Notes under the pieces: generated by a model
Told to the model about the DNA's origin: nothing
Seen by the model: the letters and a program-made list of their open reading frames with translations, nothing else
Databases searched by the model: none
Source of the DNA: Saccharothrix violaceirubra
Lineage (GTDB): Bacteria > Actinomycetota > Actinomycetes > Mycobacteriales > Pseudonocardiaceae
Direction of reading: 5' to 3'
Assembly (NCBI RefSeq): GCF_014203755.1
Contig: NZ_JACHJS010000001.1
Coordinates: forward strand, 5,704,001 to 5,768,000
DNA length: 64,000 nucleotides
Part shown: one piece after another, positions 12,017 through 29,053 of the stretch
Numbering within the stretch: the stretch's first letter is position 1
Layout of the letters: every line of letters begins with the position of its first letter
Made by a program: the position numbers and the translations under genes

Positions 12017-12883
12017 ATGATCAGCAGGCGCACGGTGCTCACCACGGTGGGCGCGGGCGGTCTCACGGCGGCGGCGGTGCTGGCCGCCGGGCCGATGCCC
12101 GCCCTCGACGCCCTGTGGTCCGTGCTCGGCGTCGCCGGTCCCGTCCCGACCCCGAAACGCGCCGTGGTCAAGGTGGACCGCGTGTACTCGCGCTACCGGG
12201 GTCGCGAGGTCGACCTCCAGACGATCGTGCCGCCGGGCGTGTCCGCGCGTGGCCTGCCGATGTCGATCCTGCTGCACGGCCTGCACGGCAGCGCCCGCCT
12301 CGCGGCCGTGGCGAACCTGCCGGAGGCCCTGGTCACCGCGACGACCCGGGGCATCGTGCCGCCGTTCGGGTTCGTGTCGGTCGACGGCGGCGACAACTAC
12401 TGGCACGAGAACGTGCCCGGCGACGACCCGATGGCCATGCTGCTCGAAGAGGTGCCGGTGTGGCTGGCCGAACGCGGGTTCGGCCCGGTGTTCGCGTGCA
12501 CCGGCGTGTCCATGGGCGGATTCGGCGCCCTGCTCTACGGGCGGCGCGAGCGGGAACGCCGCGAGAGCCTCGGCGCGATCGCGGCCGTGTCGCCCGGGTT
12601 GATCACGACCTGGGAGGAGATGGCCAAGCGCAAGGCGTTCGCCGACCGCGAGCAGTGGGTCTCGCTGGACCCGTTGCGCAACCTGGACAAGGTCGGCGAC
12701 GCGCCCACCGGGATCTGGATCGGCGACCGGGACAAGTTCATCGAGGGCACGCGCCGGTTCATCGAGGCCGTCAAGCCGGTCGTCGGGTCGATCACGCCCG
12801 GCCGGCACGACGACGCGTTCTACCGGACGATCACCGACGACGTGGTCCGGTTCCTGGGCAAACGGGTCCCGAAGCGGTCATAG
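12017..12883 (+). CDS. Tat-exported alpha/beta-hydrolase (esterase D / antigen-85-like)
   Basis: 288-residue predicted secreted esterase. Starts at ATG 12017 with a twin-arginine signal MISRRTVLTTVGAGGLTAAA and hydrophobic core to about residue 30. The hydrolase fold shows SILLHGLHG (oxyanion region), the nucleophile elbow TGVSMGGFGALL with Ser near 157, IWIGDRDKF (acidic residue region) and GRHDDAFYR carrying the likely catalytic His near 259. It resembles antigen-85/esterase D lipases in order of motifs. It follows the CoA-transferase by 53 nt. The last 6 nt overlap the convergent gene at 12878. Confidence 0.82.
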   Translation: MISRRTVLTTVGAGGLTAAAVLAAGPMPALDALWSVLGVAGPVPTPKRAVVKVDRVYSRYRGREVDLQTIVPPGVSARGLPMSILLHGLHGSARLAAVANLPEALVTATTRGIVPPFGFVSVDGGDNYWHENVPGDDPMAMLLEEVPVWLAERGFGPVFACTGVSMGGFGALLYGRRERERRESLGAIAAVSPGLITTWEEMAKRKAFADREQWVSLDPLRNLDKVGDAPTGIWIGDRDKFIEGTRRFIEAVKPVVGSITPGRHDDAFYRTITDDVVRFLGKRVPKRS

Positions 12884-20642: not shown

Positions 20643-21548
20643 ATGGAGACACGACAGCTTTTGGCGTTCACCACCGTGGTTCAAACCGGTAGTTTCACCA
20701 AGGCCGCCGCCACACTGAATTGTTCGCAACCCACCATCACCACCCGGATCAAGGCGCTCGAGGAAACTCTGGGCGTACCGTTGTTCCGCCGACTGCCGCG
20801 CGGCATCCAGATGACCTCGGCCGGTGTCGAACTCCTCCCGTTCGCCCGGAACATCATCACCCTGACGGACAAGGCCAGGAAAGCGATCACGATGAACGGC
20901 GAGCCACACGGCAAGCTGGTCATCGGCAGCGCGCAAAGCCTGACCGACTACCGTCTGCTACCGCTGATCGAATACATGTGCTGGCGCTACCCGAGCGTCC
21001 AGATCTCGCTGCACTCGTGGAACACCAGGACCAACCTGACGTCGGTGCGCGACGGCCGGCTCGACTGCACGTTCTTCATCGGCTCCGTCGAACCCCACGA
21101 GGGTCTGGAGACGACCGTGCTGTGCCCGGAGCCGCTGGTCATGGTGGCCGGGCCGACGCACGCGCTGACCAGGCGTTCGGTGATCACCGAGGACGAGCTG
21201 CGCGGCAGCACCCTGATCCGCGCGGAGAACGGCGCGAGCTACTACGAGCAGTTCGAGCAGGCGTTGGGGCTGGGCGAGACGGAGACCAGGGCACCGGTGC
21301 TGGCGCTGGACTCGATCGACGCGGCGAAGCGCGCGGTGGCGTCGGGGCTCGGGATCTCGCTGGTGCCGGAGGTGACCGTGGCGGCGGAGCTGGCGGACGG
21401 CAGGCTGTGCCGGCTGCCGTGGGTGCCGCCGTTCCGGGTGTACACGCAGTTCGCGTGGCGTCAGGACAACGCCACGAACCCGTCCGTGACGGCACTCGTG
21501 TCGGCCGCGGCGCAGGTGGTGAGCGAACAGGTCGCGACGCCGGTGTGA
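20643..21548 (+). CDS. LysR-family transcriptional regulator
   Basis: 301-residue LTTR. The winged helix-turn-helix fills residues 1-60 (METRQLLAFTTVVQTGSFTK, then LNCSQPTITTRIKALEETLG and LFRRLPRGIQMTSAG). A linker helix and a periplasmic-binding-like effector domain follow (LVIGSAQSLTDYRLLPLIEY onward). The start METRQ at 20643 is the standard LTTR beginning. LTTRs usually regulate a divergent neighbour, but here the divergent gene is tig, 1.1 kb away, so the target is unclear. A terminator hairpin and then tRNA genes follow. Confidence 0.92.
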   Translation: METRQLLAFTTVVQTGSFTKAAATLNCSQPTITTRIKALEETLGVPLFRRLPRGIQMTSAGVELLPFARNIITLTDKARKAITMNGEPHGKLVIGSAQSLTDYRLLPLIEYMCWRYPSVQISLHSWNTRTNLTSVRDGRLDCTFFIGSVEPHEGLETTVLCPEPLVMVAGPTHALTRRSVITEDELRGSTLIRAENGASYYEQFEQALGLGETETRAPVLALDSIDAAKRAVASGLGISLVPEVTVAAELADGRLCRLPWVPPFRVYTQFAWRQDNATNPSVTALVSAAAQVVSEQVATPV

Positions 21549-21727: not shown

Positions 21728-21798
21728 GCGGGTGTAGCTCAATGGTAGAGCCCCAGCCTTCCAAGCTGGTCATGCGGGTTCGATTCCCGTCACCCGCT
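21728..21798 (+). tRNA. tRNA-Gly (TCC anticodon)
   Basis: 71-nt cloverleaf without CCA. Acceptor GCGGGTG pairs with CACCCGC, and the anticodon stem CCAGC/GCTGG holds loop CTTCCAA (anticodon TCC). The T loop is TTCGATT. A decayed integrase tail and mobile genes start 95 nt downstream, so this tRNA is a likely integration site. Confidence 0.96.
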
Positions 21799-21821
21799 CT
21801 CTCGCTTCCCTTGCAGGTCAA

Positions 21822-21855
21822 CGGGGATGCAACCCCTCTGGGGACCACATCCCCG
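21822..21855 (+). terminator. Nested hairpin after tRNA-Gly
   Basis: CGGGGATG at 21822-21829 pairs with CATCCCCG at 21848-21855, with an inner CCCC/GGGG stem. It could end tRNA-Gly transcription or mark the junction of the integrated element. Confidence 0.5.
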
Positions 21856-21892
21856 CTTCCCTGCCGGAACCCGTCGTGCGATTAACGTGCGA

Positions 21893-22089
21893 TCAGGACT
21901 TCTTACGCTTTCGCACGGCTTTGACGCGCTTGCTCAACCGATCGGCGATCTCCCGATCCGCTCGCTCGTGGCGTGTTGGTAGATCAGCGCGGCCCGCATG
22001 CTCCCGTGCCCCATGCGATGCATCAGCTCCCGCGTACTCGCACCGGCCGCAGCGGCGAGGGGCAGGTTCAGGCGGTCGTAGCATCTGAT
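21893..22089 (-). pseudogene. Tyrosine recombinase (phage-type integrase), C-terminal remnant
   Basis: The minus strand encodes the end of a tyrosine integrase in two frames. One frame gives LPLAAAAGASTRELMHRMGH and then MRAALIYQHATSER, with the HxxGH-like box and catalytic Tyr expected of the family. One base later in another frame it continues DREIADRLSKRVKAV to the stop at 21893. Insertion of a single G at GAGCGG-ATCGGG restores one frame, so a one-base deletion is the simplest cause. Sequence upstream of about 22089 is replaced by an IS30 element, and the rest of the gene is gone. Position beside tRNA-Gly fits an old integrative element. Confidence 0.8.
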
Positions 22090-22129
22090 CTTGATGTTCG
22101 GTGGGGAAGGATTCCCTGTCGTGCGCAGG

Positions 22130-23117
22130 ATGTTGACCTTGGCCGAGCGGGAGGAGATCTGGCCGAGCGGGAGGAGATCTCTCGTGGTCCGGCCGAGTCG
22201 TTGGAGTACAAGGAGATCGCCGTTCTGATCGGGCATGGTCCCTCGGTCGTCTCGCGGGAGGTGGCCCGGCACGGCGGACGTGAGGGGTACCGGGCGGCGG
22301 TGGCCGAACGGGCGGCGGCGGAGTCGCGGGCCCGGCCGAAGGTCCTGGCGGTCGACCGGGACCCCGTGGTACGTGCGCGGATACTCGGGTTGTTGCGGAT
22401 CGGCTGGTCACCGGCCTCGATCGCGGGCCGGTCGGCACGTGATCACGGTCGAGGGCAGGCTGGTCGGGTGAGCCACGAGGCCATCTACCGGTGGGTCTAC
22501 GCCCAGCCGGTCGCGACGCTGCGCCGGGAGTTGGCGCGCTGCGGACCGGGCGCACCCGCAGGAGCGGGCCGCGTCCGGCACCGGCACCGCGCATCCGCGA
22601 GCCCCGCCACCTCGACCGACGCCCCGCCGAGGCGGACGGCAGGGCGGTGCCCGGTCATCGGGAGGGCGACATCGTCGTGGGCAAGGGCGGCAGGAGCGCC
22701 GTGGCCACCCTGGTCGAGCGGACCGGCCGGTTCCTCGTCCTGGTCCCGCCGACCGGGCGCGACTCCTCGACGGTGACCCAGGCGATCATCTCCGCGGTCG
22801 GCCCGCTGCCGGCCTCGATCAAACGCTCCCTGACCTGGGACTGCGGCTCGGAGATGGCCCTGCACAAGGATGTCGCCGCCACCGGGCCGCCGGTGTTCTT
22901 CGCCCACCCGCACTCCCCGTGGGAACGCGGCAGCAACGAGAACCTCAACCGGATCGTCCGCGAGTACCTGCCCAAGGGCGTCGGGATCACCAGCGACCCG
23001 CACTACCCGGCCGCCATCGCCGCCGAGATCAACGACCGACCCCGTAAGATCCACGACTGGCGCAAACCCGGCGAGGTATTCACCGAACTCCTCGAACCGG
23101 ATGCTTCCACCGCCTGA
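22130..23117 (+). pseudogene. IS30-family transposase, frameshifted
   Basis: If the second copy of a 20-bp tandem duplication is ignored, translation from the ATG at 22130 reads MLTLAEREEIS, then IAVLIGHGPSVVSREVARHG: the IS30 helix-turn-helix N-terminus. The duplication at 22141-22180 shifts the frame. A second shift lies near 22540-22560, after TLRRELAR. The C-terminal DDE half stays open from there: VPGHREGDIVVGKGG (Asp), SLTWDCGSEM (Asp) and PWERGSNENLNRIV (Glu). All three catalytic acids survive, but two shifts make an active protein unlikely. It is a different IS30 lineage from the intact copy at 27.8 kb. Confidence 0.8.
22141..22180 (+). repeat. Perfect 20-bp tandem duplication
   Basis: GGCCGAGCGGGAGGAGATCT occurs twice head to tail (22141-22160, 22161-22180). 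Twenty is not a multiple of three, so the duplication inactivates the transposase frame. Confidence 0.97.
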
Positions 23118-23124
23118 ACTCGCC

Positions 23125-23187
23125 GTTGCGGGTAAGACGCTTCGTCGCGTTACCGGCTCTCATCCAGGCCATGTTGTGCGCCCAAGT
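23125..23187. repeat. Imperfect direct repeat, copy 1 (left of Shedu gene)
   Basis: About 60 bp shared with 24633-24691 with a handful of substitutions; the core CGCTTCGTCGCGTTACC is identical. On the minus strand both copies encode nearly the same peptide, HxMAWMRAGNATKRL. This copy is preceded there by DDRGTWA rather than by the Cys-rich segment of copy 2. Confidence 0.85.
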
Positions 23188-23287
23188 CCCACGGTCGTCC
23201 ATCTGGGTGAGATCATCGATGGCGACCTGGAAGCAGTAACGGAAGCAGCTCAGCTGACGACATGATCACAAAGATTCATCTCTGAGC

Positions 23288-23293
23288 TATAAT
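23288..23293 (+). promoter_or_regulatory. Likely -10 box of the Shedu-like gene
   Basis: A perfect TATAAT lies 22 nt before the start codon. The matching -35 region (near 23264-23271) is weak. An AAAGGA ribosome site follows at about 23301. Confidence 0.5.
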
Positions 23294-23315
23294 CGCTTCC
23301 AAAGGACGCACTGCG

Positions 23316-24524
23316 ATGACACGATTCTCCAGCGCATATAGGCTCCTCGGTACTGAGTTCTCCGTTGCCGACGGGGACTTCAGCAACCTTGAGATTCGTC
23401 GCAGTGAAAACGATGACAACTTCCACTTCTTTTTCGACACTAGAGCGAACCGCCTGATTACCGACTTCGTTCTTGATGATCGACCGCGAGTAGCGACCCT
23501 GTGCCAGGTAACGCTCATCAAGAAAGATGGCACGTACTCACCTCGGCTGCGATTCTGGAAGAAGGATAAGTCAAGTCCCCAGAGGAGGGCGCTCGAATAC
23601 ACGGTAACCGAGGACGAAGTTACAAAGATAATCAAGGCGACGGTTGATACCAGCGACGGCCACCAAAACGTGTGGAAGTTGATCCACTTCCTGCAAAGCT
23701 TCACCGAGGTGGACATCCCTGACGATAACTTCCGAGCAGTAACGGAGGACAGCACGCAGCTTGCCGGACTGCTCGAATCGAGCGACAGGCAGACGGTGCT
23801 TGAAGCAGTCCGTATCGCACTGGGCGGAGGTCTGACCGAAGAGGACTTACTAATCGTCAGCAACCGCAAGGCCCAACTTGCTGTATTCAAGAGACTGTTG
23901 AACGACCCTGACTTTTTTGAAGCCGAGCGCGTACGGCGGGAGAAGAGAGGGCCGGAAGCAGTCTGGCAAGACTTCTTCGAGGAAAACACCTGGATATTTG
24001 GGTACGGCCTTAAGCTCGTAGCTTGCGAACCGCTCGACCCGGAGAAACTTGAGCGAATTACCACAGGTGCGAACATCTTCACGGGTGCGGGCAAGCGTGC
24101 GGATGCAGTCATGCGCTCGAAGGGGTACGTCAGCAGTCTGCTGTTCTGCGAGATTAAAACGCATCTAAAGCCGCTGCTGGAAAAGATTCCCTATCGACAG
24201 CCAGACGTATACCAAGTGTCGACAGAGGTCAGTGGTGGAGTATCGCAAGTCCAGAAGACTGCCAGCAAGGCCCTGATGGGCATCTCACAGGTGTTGCACG
24301 ATTTGTACGAAGACGACGGCACACCGACAGGAATCCAGTTCTCAGCGATCCGGCCCCGACAAGCTCTGGTAATCGGCAGCCTTGACGAGTTCAAGACTGG
24401 CGGCGGCGTGAACCCGGAGAAACTGTCGTCGTTTGACCTATTTAGGCACTCTGTTCAGGACGTTGAGATTATCACCTTTGACGAGCTTTACGAACGGGCC
24501 AGCTTCATCGTCCACGACACGTAG
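23316..24524 (+). CDS. Shedu-type (SduA, DUF4263) anti-phage nuclease
   Basis: 402-residue protein. Residues 1-200 are a variable, probably sensing, region. The C-terminal half reads as the DUF4263 nuclease of the single-gene Shedu defence system: VWQDFFEENTWIFGYG near 217-231, then a PD-(D/E)xK arrangement with KRADAVM (Asp263) and LLFCEIKTH (Glu279-x-Lys281). VYQVSTEVSGGVSQVQKT (Gln311) and RPRQALVIG follow. These catalytic residues are all kept. Base composition is clearly lower in GC (sampled lines about 50-58%) and codon use differs from its roughly 70% neighbours, a sign of recent transfer. It sits alone between a broken IS30 and a repeat, beside tRNA-Gly, and ends at a hairpin. DUF4263 membership is from motif reading, not a search. 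Confidence 0.82.
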   Translation: MTRFSSAYRLLGTEFSVADGDFSNLEIRRSENDDNFHFFFDTRANRLITDFVLDDRPRVATLCQVTLIKKDGTYSPRLRFWKKDKSSPQRRALEYTVTEDEVTKIIKATVDTSDGHQNVWKLIHFLQSFTEVDIPDDNFRAVTEDSTQLAGLLESSDRQTVLEAVRIALGGGLTEEDLLIVSNRKAQLAVFKRLLNDPDFFEAERVRREKRGPEAVWQDFFEENTWIFGYGLKLVACEPLDPEKLERITTGANIFTGAGKRADAVMRSKGYVSSLLFCEIKTHLKPLLEKIPYRQPDVYQVSTEVSGGVSQVQKTASKALMGISQVLHDLYEDDGTPTGIQFSAIRPRQALVIGSLDEFKTGGGVNPEKLSSFDLFRHSVQDVEIITFDELYERASFIVHDT

Positions 24525-24555
24525 GACAGGTCATCAGCTGTTACAAAGAGAAAGA

Positions 24556-24581
24556 CCCCGCCCGGACGATACCGAGCGGGG
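24556..24581 (+). terminator. Hairpin after the Shedu-like gene
   Basis: CCCCGC at 24556-24561 and GCGGGG at 24576-24581 form a 6-bp GC stem 31 nt beyond the stop codon. Confidence 0.5.
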
Positions 24582-24602
24582 CGATACTGGCCGATCTGAT
24601 GA

Positions 24603-25079
24603 TCAGTCGTGGTTGAGGGGTTGCCCCCAGCGGTTGCGGATAAGGCGCTTCGTCGCGTTACCAGCTCTCATCCAGGCCATGTGATGCGCCCGGTTCACAA
24701 AGGTACGACTTGGGCGGACAGGTTCACCGCAGCCACAAGCACAGATATTTTCAGGTTCATTTTCGGCCAGCGGCCGGACGTAGTGAAGCTTTTGCAGGAG
24801 CTTCTTAGCGCCACCCTCACGCTACCAATAGACCCGATGCTCTTGGTTGACGAACTTGCGATTGGGGGCGACGGGCGTAGCGCAGCCGCAGGCGCAGACT
24901 TTTTGATTTTGGTTCGCGCTGTCCGGGGCAACCGGGCGGGCCCGTAGGCTGGGGAGCCTGGTCAGCCGGGCGGCCTGCCGGGCGTTGTGAGGGTTGTGGA
25001 AAATTTGTCGAAGGCGTTCTTCTTCTCCCTCGCTGGTAGACCTCTCGACGACCGTCCCTTGTGGATGGTCGCCTTGCTT
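24603..25079 (-). pseudogene. Relic of a small Cys-rich (CxCGCG) protein
   Basis: One minus-strand frame carries two related motifs: VCACGCATPVAPNRKFVNQE (24838-24899) and ICACGCGEPVRPSRTFVNRA (24687-24746). A tail MAWMRAGNATKRLIRNRW follows and ends at the TGA at 24603. An in-frame TAG at 24822-24824 separates the motifs. Upstream the frame stays open to a stop at 25080-25082 and reads plausibly (LRQIFHNPHNARQAARLTRL), but no good start codon is seen. CxCGCG-x-PV motifs resemble zinc-binding segments of phage and plasmid proteins. I treat it as a broken gene; stop-codon read-through is a remote alternative. Confidence 0.6.
24633..24691. repeat. Imperfect direct repeat, copy 2 (right of Shedu gene)
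   Basis: Partner of 23125-23187. This copy forms the 3' end of the Cys-rich relic on the minus strand, so copy 1 is probably a displaced fragment of a homologous gene. Confidence 0.85.
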
Positions 25080-25082
25080 TCA

Positions 25083-25463
25083 CGGATCTTCCGCGCCCTC
25101 CGCGTGCCCCATCGCCGCCGTGATCATGGCGCCCATGCCCCGCACATGGAACCGTGCAAACCCGGCCAGGGTGTTCCCGGTGCGATGGTCGCCCGGACGA
25201 CGGCCCCGGATCGGACTTCGAGACTTTCATCCTTTGTGGACACCCAGACCGCCACCCCCGTCGTCGACCCGGATCCGGGCATCCATGTTGCGCGAACGCA
25301 CAACTTGACGTGAGCACACCACAACCCGCTAGGCTGCGTCGCGTACTCCTGCGAACCGTACGAAGGAGAGGCATTACCCGGTGTGGCGAACGGGAAGGCG
25401 GGTCATGCCGCCAAACGCGGCCCGACTTCCCGTTCGCGTCCGGAGATCGTCCTTTATGTACAG
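25083..25463. other. Gap with a long RNA stem-loop
   Basis: No convincing gene. A strong inverted repeat lies at 25387-25436: CGAACGGGAAG pairs with CTTCCCGTTCG, extended by CGGG/CCCG after one mismatch. A purine-rich AAGGAGAGG precedes it (25361-25369). It could be a terminator for the plus strand, a leader structure or a small RNA. Confidence 0.4.
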
Positions 25464-25586
25464 TCAGCGCCCCACGGACGACACGGCACGCCACAGCGCC
25501 TCACCGAAGCGCACTGCCAGCAGGACCAGCAGCACACCCAGTCCGCAGGTCACCAGGCACCGCACGAGCGACCTCAGCTTCGTCAC
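25464..25586 (-). CDS. Putative 40-residue membrane peptide
   Basis: From a GTG at 25586 the frame reads MTKLRSLVRCLVTCGLGVLL and continues with one hydrophobic helix (VLLVLLAVRFGEALW), ending SSVGR. Basic N-terminus, single membrane span and GC-rich third positions resemble small actinobacterial membrane proteins. The ribosome site is weak (AGGA about 10 nt upstream). It diverges from the acetyltransferase gene. No homolog recognised; it could be chance. Confidence 0.4.
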   Translation of the reverse strand: MTKLRSLVRCLVTCGLGVLLVLLAVRFGEALWRAVSSVGR

Positions 25587-25691
25587 CGCACCAGTGTCCT
25601 GGCCTCGCCTCGGCTGTCGACCCCGATGACCCGTTCGCCGCAGCACGACACCGGATAGCGTGGATATTTCCCGGGGCGTAGGAATACACGC

Positions 25692-26900
25692 ATGTCGTTC
25701 ACCGTGCGCACCCTCACCGAAGACGAACTCCTCCCCCACGCGCGCCTGACGGTCGCCGCCTTCATGCTCGACACCCCCGAGGAACGGATCGGACGGTGGA
25801 CCGGGCTCCACGAGCCGGACCGGACGCATGGCGTGTTCGAGGACGGTGCGCTGCTCGGCGCCGCCGGCGTCCAGACGCGCCACCTCACCCTGCCCGGCAC
25901 CGGACCCCGACCGTTCGCCGCCGTGACGACCGTCGTCGTCGATCCCGGCCACCGGCGTCGCGGCGTGCTGCGGCGGCTCATGACCGAACAGCTCACCGCC
26001 CTGCACGACGGCGGCGAACCCGTCGCGGCGCTCTGGGCCTCCGAAGCCGCCATCTACGGCCGCTTCGGCTACGCCATGGCCTCCGAGGTCGTCCGACTGG
26101 AAATCCCGCAGCGGGCCGCCTTCCGCCCCCGCGTCGACATCGGCACCGACCGGGTGCGCCTTGTCGCACGCGACGAGGCGTTGCCGCTCGTCAAGGACCT
26201 CTACGAACGCGTCCGCCCCACCCGCACCGGCTGGATCAGCCGCAACGACGTGCAGTGGGCCTACTTCCTGTCCGACGACGAGTGGGACCGCCACGGCCAG
26301 AGCGCCTACCGCTACGCCCTGCACCCCGACGGCTACGTGGTCTACCGGCTCAAAGCAGACTGGCAGGACCGGGGACCACGCGGCGAACTCCACGTCCGCG
26401 AGTTCGTCGCCGCGACACCCGAGGCCACGGCCGCGCTCTACCGGCACGTGCTCGACGCCGACCTCATCGGGGAGATCAAGTACTCGGTGGCGGCCACCGA
26501 CGACCCGATCGTGCACCTGCTCGCCGACTCCCGGCTGATCCGCCGCCGCCGGTCCGACTCGCTGTGGGTGCGGATCGTGGACGTCGACCGCGCGCTGGCA
26601 TCGCGGACCTACTCGTCCGACGTGGACCTCGTGCTCGAGGTCGCCGACGACCTCTGCCCGTGGAACACCGACCGTTGGCGCCTGACCGTCCGCGACGGTG
26701 TCGCCGAGGTCACCCGCACGCCGGACGAGGCCGACGTGGTGCTCGACGTGCGGGCACTGGGGTCCGCCTTCCTCGGCGGCCAGCGGCTCACCTCGCTCAC
26801 CGGCGCCCAACTCGTGGCCGAGGTCACGCCCGGCTCGCTGCGTGCCCTGTCATCCGCGTTCCTGGGCGACCACGACCCGCACTGCCACGAGATCTTCTAG
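25692..26900 (+). CDS. Eis-like GNAT N-acetyltransferase
   Basis: 402-residue acetyltransferase with the size and three-part layout of the Eis family (two GNAT folds plus an SCP2-like C-terminal domain). Eis enzymes acetylate amines, including aminoglycosides. The acetyl-CoA-binding loop is VVVDPGHRRRGVLRRLM near residues 85-101. EAAIYGRFGYAMASE follows, as in Eis proteins. The chain ends HEIF with a free C-terminal carboxylate, the feature Eis uses in catalysis. Start MSFTVRTL at 25692. It sits just beyond the tRNA-Gly island, with normal high-GC codon use. The natural substrate cannot be stated. Confidence 0.88.
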   Translation: MSFTVRTLTEDELLPHARLTVAAFMLDTPEERIGRWTGLHEPDRTHGVFEDGALLGAAGVQTRHLTLPGTGPRPFAAVTTVVVDPGHRRRGVLRRLMTEQLTALHDGGEPVAALWASEAAIYGRFGYAMASEVVRLEIPQRAAFRPRVDIGTDRVRLVARDEALPLVKDLYERVRPTRTGWISRNDVQWAYFLSDDEWDRHGQSAYRYALHPDGYVVYRLKADWQDRGPRGELHVREFVAATPEATAALYRHVLDADLIGEIKYSVAATDDPIVHLLADSRLIRRRRSDSLWVRIVDVDRALASRTYSSDVDLVLEVADDLCPWNTDRWRLTVRDGVAEVTRTPDEADVVLDVRALGSAFLGGQRLTSLTGAQLVAEVTPGSLRALSSAFLGDHDPHCHEIF

Positions 26901-27766: not shown

Positions 27767-29053
27767 TTCTAGGAGTCGTTGCATCACTCCAGTTCAGGGG
27801 ATGCGATGGACTTTCAGATCCGGGCGGTGCGGAAGCCTCAGGGGCCTCGGAAGTTGGCTGCGGAGCGGGCCGAATACTTGCGGCTCGTGCAGCGGGGAAT
27901 GACCAACAAGCAGGCGTGCGGGCTCGTCGGGGTCAACCCGAAGACCGGCAGGCGCTGGCGTAACGGGCGTAACGCGTCTGGCAAGAACAAGGCGGCGTCA
28001 CCGATCCAGTCGGTGGCGTCGCCTTCCGCACCGTCCCGCTATCCATGCGAGGACGACCGAATCCACATCGCCGACCGGCTGCGTGAGAGGGCCACGATCC
28101 GACAGATCGCTGCCGAGCCGGGCCGGAGCCCGTCCACGGTCAGCCGGGAGATCCGTCGTAACCGTCACCCCGGCAACGGTCAGTACCGGCCACATGCCGC
28201 GCAGGCCCGCGCCGACGCCCGGCGTCCCCGCCCGAAAGAGCGCAAGTTGGCGGCCAACGCCGAGCTGCACCGGGCTGTGCGGGACCATCTGGGTCGCAGG
28301 CTCAGCCCCGAGCAGATCGCCGCCGTGCTGCGACGGGACTTTCCCGACCGGCCGGAGATGCACGTGACCCACGAGACGATCTACCAGGCCCTCTACGTGC
28401 AAGGACGTGGCGAGCTGCGTCGCGAGCTGGCTCGGGCGCTGCGCACCGGCCGCACCGTGCGCAAACCCCGTCGCCGCCCCGGACAACGACAGCCGCGGTT
28501 CATCAACCCGATGATCATGATCAGTGGGCGTCCCGCCGAGGCCGAGGACCGGGCGGTGCCCGGCCACTGGGAAGGCGACCTGATCATCGGCAAGGACAAC
28601 GCCTCCGCGATCGGCACCCTGGTCGAACGCGCCACCCGCTACGTGATGCTCGTTCATCTGCCTCACGGCCGCTCCGCCGAAGCCGTCCACGACGCTCTGA
28701 TCGATACCCTCCAGGCCCTGCCCGCCCACCTCACCCGATCTCTGACCTGGGACCAAGGCGCCGAGATGGCCAACCACGCCGCGTTCAGCCTGGCCACCGA
28801 CATCCCCGTCTACTTCTGCGACCCCGCCAGCCCCTGGCAACGCGGCTCCAACGAGAACACAAACGGTCTGTTGCGCCAGTACTTTCCCAAGGGCAGCGAC
28901 CTATCGGGGCACACACCGGAGGACCTGGTCGCGGTCGCGGCCGAACTCAACGGCCGTCCACGCAAAACGCTCGGCTGGGACACCCCAGCCGAGCGCTTGG
29001 CTAAGCTCCTGGCCGAAGCCAGTTGATCACTTGTGTTGCTACGACCCCTGGAA
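27767..29053 (+). mobile_element. Intact IS30-family insertion sequence
   Basis: Terminal inverted repeats: TTCTAGGAGTCGTTGCATCA at 27767-27786 and, on the other strand, TTCCAGGGGTCGTAGCAACA ending at 29053. They match at 17 of 21 positions when the next base is included. Nine bases lie between each repeat and the perfect 20-bp arms outside. The exact ends are uncertain because the outer arms may belong to the target or to the element. Confidence 0.8.
27806..29026 (+). CDS. IS30-family transposase
   Basis: 406-residue DDE transposase, apparently full length. N-terminal helix-turn-helix pairs are visible (RGMTNKQACGLVGVNPKTGR and then ATIRQIAAEPGRSPSTVSRE). The catalytic core carries VPGHWEGDLIIGKDN (first Asp), SLTWDQGAEM (second Asp) and PWQRGSNENTNGLL (Glu). 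The ATG at 27806 has AGGGG 6-7 nt upstream; a TTG at 27779 inside the terminal repeat is less likely. It lies between the terminal repeats with 7 nt from stop to right repeat, typical of the family. No internal stops, so it may be mobile. Confidence 0.94.
   Translation: MDFQIRAVRKPQGPRKLAAERAEYLRLVQRGMTNKQACGLVGVNPKTGRRWRNGRNASGKNKAASPIQSVASPSAPSRYPCEDDRIHIADRLRERATIRQIAAEPGRSPSTVSREIRRNRHPGNGQYRPHAAQARADARRPRPKERKLAANAELHRAVRDHLGRRLSPEQIAAVLRRDFPDRPEMHVTHETIYQALYVQGRGELRRELARALRTGRTVRKPRRRPGQRQPRFINPMIMISGRPAEAEDRAVPGHWEGDLIIGKDNASAIGTLVERATRYVMLVHLPHGRSAEAVHDALIDTLQALPAHLTRSLTWDQGAEMANHAAFSLATDIPVYFCDPASPWQRGSNENTNGLLRQYFPKGSDLSGHTPEDLVAVAAELNGRPRKTLGWDTPAERLAKLLAEAS

Follow-up and report, generated by a model that had tools for sequence, protein, structure and literature searches.

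A defence gene at a decayed tRNA-Gly site

How does one intact defence gene come to stand in the wreck of a mobile element? We asked this of a tRNA-Gly locus in the soil actinobacterium Saccharothrix violaceirubra, located in a stretch of 64,000 nucleotides (hereafter the window; contig NZ_JACHJS010000001.1, positions 5,704,001 to 5,768,000). A preliminary description, made from the sequence alone, had reported there an integrase tail, a dead IS30 copy and one intact gene of lower G+C content, sduA, whose product resembles the Shedu anti-phage nucleases. We consider it probable that the locus is what is left of an actinomycete integrative and conjugative element (AICE) once integrated in the tRNA-Gly gene, and that it still holds one working-looking gene, sduA.

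Beside the tRNA-Gly gene recognised by ARAGORN (Table 1), the minus-strand frame below 22060 is 100% identical over 27-34 residues to integrases found at the same tRNA in six relatives (L055-L059 and L063), which bears out the reported integrase tail. Its DNA is 86% identical to that of L058 and 79% to that of L055, and it is nearer to these six than to the integrase of L069, an element at the same tRNA in genome G010. Compared with the C-termini of three relatives, the tail is frameshifted. The DNA homology to integrases ends at 22060-22061, exactly where the IS30 copy starts. In that copy the transposase is recognised in one frame by NF033563 (164.3 bits, cut-off 80) and the helix-turn-helix in another by PF13936 (4e-5, below cut-off); its imperfect ends, 22061-22085 and 23100-23124 (25 bp each), show 84% complementarity, and a tandem duplication of 20 bp occupies 22140-22179. 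The IS30 copy is dead, as had been proposed.

A search of the window with RepSA and Tra of L069 gave nothing at 1e-8, and we therefore speak of an AICE remnant and not of an AICE. The remnant extends from 21800 to about 25020; the preliminary description had drawn its right edge at 25082, where the native tRNA-Gly trailer, which resumes at about 25024, has already begun. At the right border no copy of the attachment (att) site scored above chance (best 18.0 in 23001-25700; shuffles, mean 18.0 and maximum 26). The remnant should not be able to move by itself, because its integrase is reduced to a frameshifted tail, its replication and transfer genes and its second att copy are gone, and the IS30 copy sits where the integrase homology ends. 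A second, full-length IS30-like transposase open reading frame (ORF) of 415 residues, with helix-turn-helix and rve domains above cut-off, lies 3 kb to the right of the remnant (27779-29026).

The product of sduA

The reading frame of sduA is uninterrupted over 402 codons and has a G+C content of 54.3% against 70.9% for the window, a value as low being reached in 0.3% of 1206-bp windows; it is indeed an intact gene of lower G+C content. Its C-terminal half had been said to show the DUF4263 pattern (Asp263, Glu279-x-Lys281, Gln311). These residues are found at the positions given, and PF14082 (SduA_C, DUF4263) matches with 93.9 bits against a cut-off of 27. Thirteen SduA models of PADLOC match at E <= 1, the best at 1e-156, and model PDLC00391 aligns to residues 11-401 over its positions 14-401 of 402. 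D263, E279, K281 and Q311, which we take to be the Shedu active-site motif, are invariant throughout an alignment of 121 sequences, in which the window protein stands with the 120 homologues listed out of 2105. Moreover, the structure predicted for the C-terminal half can be aligned with those of solved SduA nucleases, which have the PD-(D/E)xK fold, and E279-x-K281 falls on the E-x-K of 8ti8. Both the family match and the nuclease fold on which the preliminary description had staked its assignment are thus present. Judged from its sequence, the protein is a full-length SduA in which the active-site residues are kept.

The N-terminal region is a conserved region of its own, whose fold was not recognised. 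The first 200 residues had been presented as unfamiliar; they are part of an SduA subgroup already described, and the diversity of Shedu N-termini has been published. The new phage trigger that had been suggested for them is therefore not indicated. Among the matches listed, a protein from Saccharothrix sp. ALI-22-I named "Shedu immune nuclease family protein" has 88% identity, with 100% of the length covered. In a family sample of 297 genomes, 16 match the window Shedu at 1e-20, 7 of them over nearly the whole length (its own genome included) and 9 only from residue 133-174 onward. The window gene adds one sequence to a known kind of Shedu and is not a new system. The same genome encodes a second Shedu of 465 residues (L080:9126-10523; G000:C1, about 4572125-4573522, minus strand); it is a fusion of two nuclease domains, the XhoI domain PF04555 (1.5e-33) ahead of SduA_C (3.2e-16), and its gene adjoins a phage-integrase gene.

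The tRNA-Gly site in the genus

The site was compared in 24 other genomes of the genus Saccharothrix. The tRNA pair is present in all 24, the left flank gene in 23 and the right flank gene in 21; two of the three stretches in which the latter was not found end at contig ends. In 12 of the 24, the tRNA's last 42 bases or more are repeated at a distance of 3.9-11.2 kb downstream. Relatives of the integrase, RepSA and Tra (FtsK-type) also occur in 12, of which 10 have the second tRNA copy and 2 lie at contig ends. Another 5 genomes have just fragments or accessory genes, and the remaining 7 have none of the tested AICE genes, which provides the empty sites that the preliminary description had proposed to look for. 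The site is an AICE hotspot in the genus. From its Pfam content (Phage_integrase 2e-18, RepSA 7.5e-103, FtsK_SpoIIIE 9.4e-10, and also NUDIX and HD), the L069 element is assigned to the pSAM2-type AICEs; it has the regulator-NUDIX-HD cluster that PMC3218068 describes for some of them. Near its far att copy this element holds a Shedu gene of its own, whose product is 55-56% identical to that of the window and which has the opposite orientation.

Cargo genes near the att end were surveyed in 12 elements through 19 ORFs chosen from 109 predicted, at least one per element; most, not all, have a low G+C content at third codon positions. PADLOC matched four of them, in L057 (SoFic, 3.7e-22), L069 (SduA, 6e-148), L073 (PDC-S73, 2.1e-139) and, weakly, L061 (PDC-S50, 9e-4), and the other 15 had no match at 0.01. 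By element, this partial scan gave a PADLOC match in 4 of 12 (one weak) and none in 8. Among 10 cargo ORFs searched with Pfam, Fic, Pentapeptide_3, nSTAND3 and Mrr_cat came out above cut-off and SLFN_AlbA_2 and NACHT below it; 5 of the 10 were without any Pfam match. The att-end cargo of L057, L059, L061, L068 and L073 thus includes Fic, pentapeptide-repeat, weak SLFN_AlbA_2/NACHT and Mrr-nSTAND3 (PDC-S73) genes. These matches suggest that the att end may be a slot for defence genes, which is not an established result. We dropped orf221 of L069 as a border of such a slot, since its translation, in our judgement, resembles an off-frame reading of a conserved stretch.

Origin of sduA: AICE cargo or separate arrival

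The integrase tail, the trailer at 25024 and the presence of full AICEs, fragments and empty versions at the same tRNA, together with a Shedu gene at the att end of the G010 AICE, support the derivation of the locus from an AICE. The core of the AICE would have been lost in a deletion adjoining the IS30 copy, whereas its cargo end, sduA included, would have survived under selection. We go no further than calling this probable, since it is by position that sduA is linked to an AICE. Several observations weigh against the reading as a whole. The integrase tail is the sole AICE gene left in the window. Among the 7 near-full-length relatives, only that of G010 stands amid L069-type AICE genes. The unit shared with genome G017 almost matches the stretch between the D1 direct repeats that flank sduA, which fits a separate arrival. 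Finally, the structure model of the protein is moderate (pLDDT, the predicted local distance difference test, 70.7), and Asp263 lies in a segment below pLDDT 50.

The alternative that survives best, although we hold it to be somewhat unlikely, is that sduA came separately, in a segment of about 1.5 kb associated with the small D1 gene, through homologous recombination or insertion sequences, and that the integrase tail is an unrelated older scar. The D1 repeats (62 bp, 90%) stand on both sides of sduA, and the DNA shared with G017 (81%) spans 23199-24681, nearly from D1 to D1. Moreover, the G017 copy is not at its tRNA-Gly, lying about 44 kb away on the same contig, and in G004 a D1-type ORF adjoins another gene. 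However, D1-type ORFs are absent from the scanned stretches of 15 tRNA-Gly loci, so that a mobile D1 unit has no demonstration; on the left side D1 is present as a fragment only, and a Shedu gene stands at the matching place within the intact AICE of G010.

The small C-x-C-G-C ORF whose end, duplicated on both sides of sduA, forms D1 was considered as a Shedu partner gene and rejected, as it is broken in the window. Its open relative of 98 residues (L082:1488-1784), beside a gene for 339 residues without Pfam match, itself gave no Pfam match at 0.01 and PHROG matches of 0.015 or worse, and in the protein search no sequence had enough words in common with it to become a candidate.

We examined the surroundings of other Shedu loci over stretches of 11-20 kb. 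In L107 (G266) a distant Tra match lies about 6.6 kb from the Shedu gene, and 14 further loci (L002-L013, L016, L017) gave two weak matches, to an integrase in L002 and to NUDIX in L009. With 1 of 7 near-full-length relatives amid L069-type AICE genes, the idea that the Shedu subgroup is generally AICE-borne was rejected. In the tree, the window Shedu forms a group at 100/99 with that of G017 and with P0001 (97% identical), and that of G010 is placed elsewhere on a long branch, its placement being unsure. Because the G010 Shedu branches apart from the other three, two separate Shedu arrivals in the genus appear likely, but are not proven.

Possible function of the window SduA

Two published studies report action on phages by Shedu proteins that share this nuclease core (PMC12137116, PMC12904381), and in the SduA of Escherichia coli the N-terminal region binds DNA ends, after which the nuclease nicks DNA (PMC12904381). 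By analogy with these relatives, the window SduA would oligomerise, and its N-terminal region would hold the PD-(D/E)xK nuclease inactive until an infection cue appears. Free DNA ends are this cue for the E. coli protein, and the window protein may follow the same logic with a cue of its own. The activated nuclease would then nick or cut phage DNA. A bolder proposal, unlikely to hold as a whole, is that the strand-rich N-terminal region of this actinobacterial SduA subgroup is a sensor that differs from the E. coli DNA-end clamp and answers to another phage cue, and that single defence genes, often of low GC, are swapped in and out at the AICE att end at the Saccharothrix tRNA-Gly, the window Shedu having outlived its element.

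It is also conceivable, but quite improbable, that the protein acts chiefly against rival plasmids or conjugative elements on behalf of its carrier element, and not against phages. A Shedu of the same subgroup does lie inside the G010 AICE, and NUDIX genes occur in AICEs, Pif of pSAM2 being one that confers conjugal immunity (PMC3218068); the published Shedu proteins with the same nuclease core nevertheless target phages (PMC12137116, PMC12904381).

Expression and selection

The preliminary description had called the TATAAT promoter of sduA intact. A TATAAT is present at 23288-23293, but the -35 box is poor. Together they fit the consensus at 10 of 12 positions. One promoter-like site came out of the scan against 0.7 +/- 0.8 in shuffles, so that the promoter's score does not exceed what chance would give. 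A TATAAC occupies the matching place in the 88%-identical relative L079. Terminator-like sites number 2 against 1.3 +/- 1.4 in shuffles, a count no more than chance. Selection for immunity had also been suggested. The ratio of nonsynonymous to synonymous substitution rates (dN/dS) against G017, the nearest relative with DNA, is 0.062 (Nei-Gojobori script; N half 0.11, C half 0.03), which is in line with selection on sduA, but the value covers the whole divergence and not the period since the element would have died, and dS, at 1.07, is near saturation. That sduA is a relic, open by chance of a recent arrival and silent or inactive, would agree with the promoter score and with the broken neighbours within the remnant, but the full-length frame, the kept active-site residues and the low dN/dS in both halves make it very improbable.

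Layout of the locus

Table 1. Features of the tRNA-Gly locus and its flanks (window positions)
Feature	Positions	Strand	Basis or remark
Gene taken to encode a LysR-type regulator (left chromosomal flank)	20643..21548	+	ORF; relative left of the same tRNA pair in 23/24 other genomes
tRNA-Gly (tcc), integration target	21728..21799	+	ARAGORN
Tyrosine-type integrase C-terminal tail, frameshifted	21869..22060	-	DNA and protein match to relatives' integrases; frame comparison
IS30-family insertion sequence, frame broken	22061..23124	+	NF033563; terminal ends; a further copy (79%) in the same genome
D1 direct repeat, left copy (end of small ORF)	23122..23183		62 nt, 90% identical to right copy
TATAAT, candidate -10 box	23288..23293	+	10/12 consensus positions together with -35
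sduA, predicted Shedu nuclease, 402 aa	23316..24524	+	N-terminal region about 1-170; PD-(D/E)xK nuclease about 172-402
Terminator-like hairpin downstream of sduA	24555..24582	-	Consensus scan; T-run on minus strand
Small ORF remains, two C-x-C-G-C motifs with a stop codon between	24606..24896	-	Open 98-aa relative in L082
D1 direct repeat, right copy	24630..24691		Relatives in G004 and G017
Native tRNA-Gly trailer, chromosome resumes	25024..25066	+	Side-by-side with empty sites L062, L074, L076 and others; matches 25022-25110
Presumably acetyltransferase-like (GNAT) gene (right chromosomal flank)	25692..26900	+	ORF; relative right of the site in 21/24 other genomes

Two chromosomal genes that neighbour the site in 15 and in 16 of the 24 relatives, respectively, have no match anywhere in the window; the place from which they are gone is 25110-25691, so that the remnant's right edge has undergone another deletion. 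Elsewhere in the window, ARAGORN calls a tRNA-Ala (anticodon cgc) at 12157-12244, possibly falsely; its 88 nt are unusually long for a tRNA-Ala.

Comparison with known systems

The locus is a clear-cut example of a decayed mobile element in which a defence gene still stands. As full, decayed and empty versions of the site exist in one genus, the order of events could be traced with more strains, and the tRNA-Gly site is a place to look for single-gene defence systems. Among the papers listed in our searches on AICEs and anti-phage defence in actinomycetes, we noted nothing on this link besides a survey of diDNase loci, which marks AICE genes and defence genes, including Shedu, at the level of neighbourhoods (PMC11706625).

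Compared with the solved proteins, residues 1-143 of the window SduA have no sequence match in that of Bacillus cereus (PDB 8ti8, 8ti9), and the N-terminal part of the E. coli SduA (PDB 8ps4, 8ps5) is unmatched in the window protein. Among the matches listed, Streptomyces Shedu proteins of about 685 residues with PF18860 share about 60% identity over 97-98% of the window protein and carry about 300 extra residues in front (4 of 4 checked). PADLOC model PDLC00391 and the ALI-22-I protein are alike to the window SduA over the whole length, with just ordinary sequence divergence, although the ALI-22-I gene lies in a different genomic place. The L069 AICE shares with the locus the same tRNA-Gly, an integrase and a Shedu gene near the att end, whereas the window keeps the integrase tail and the cargo end only, without the second att copy.

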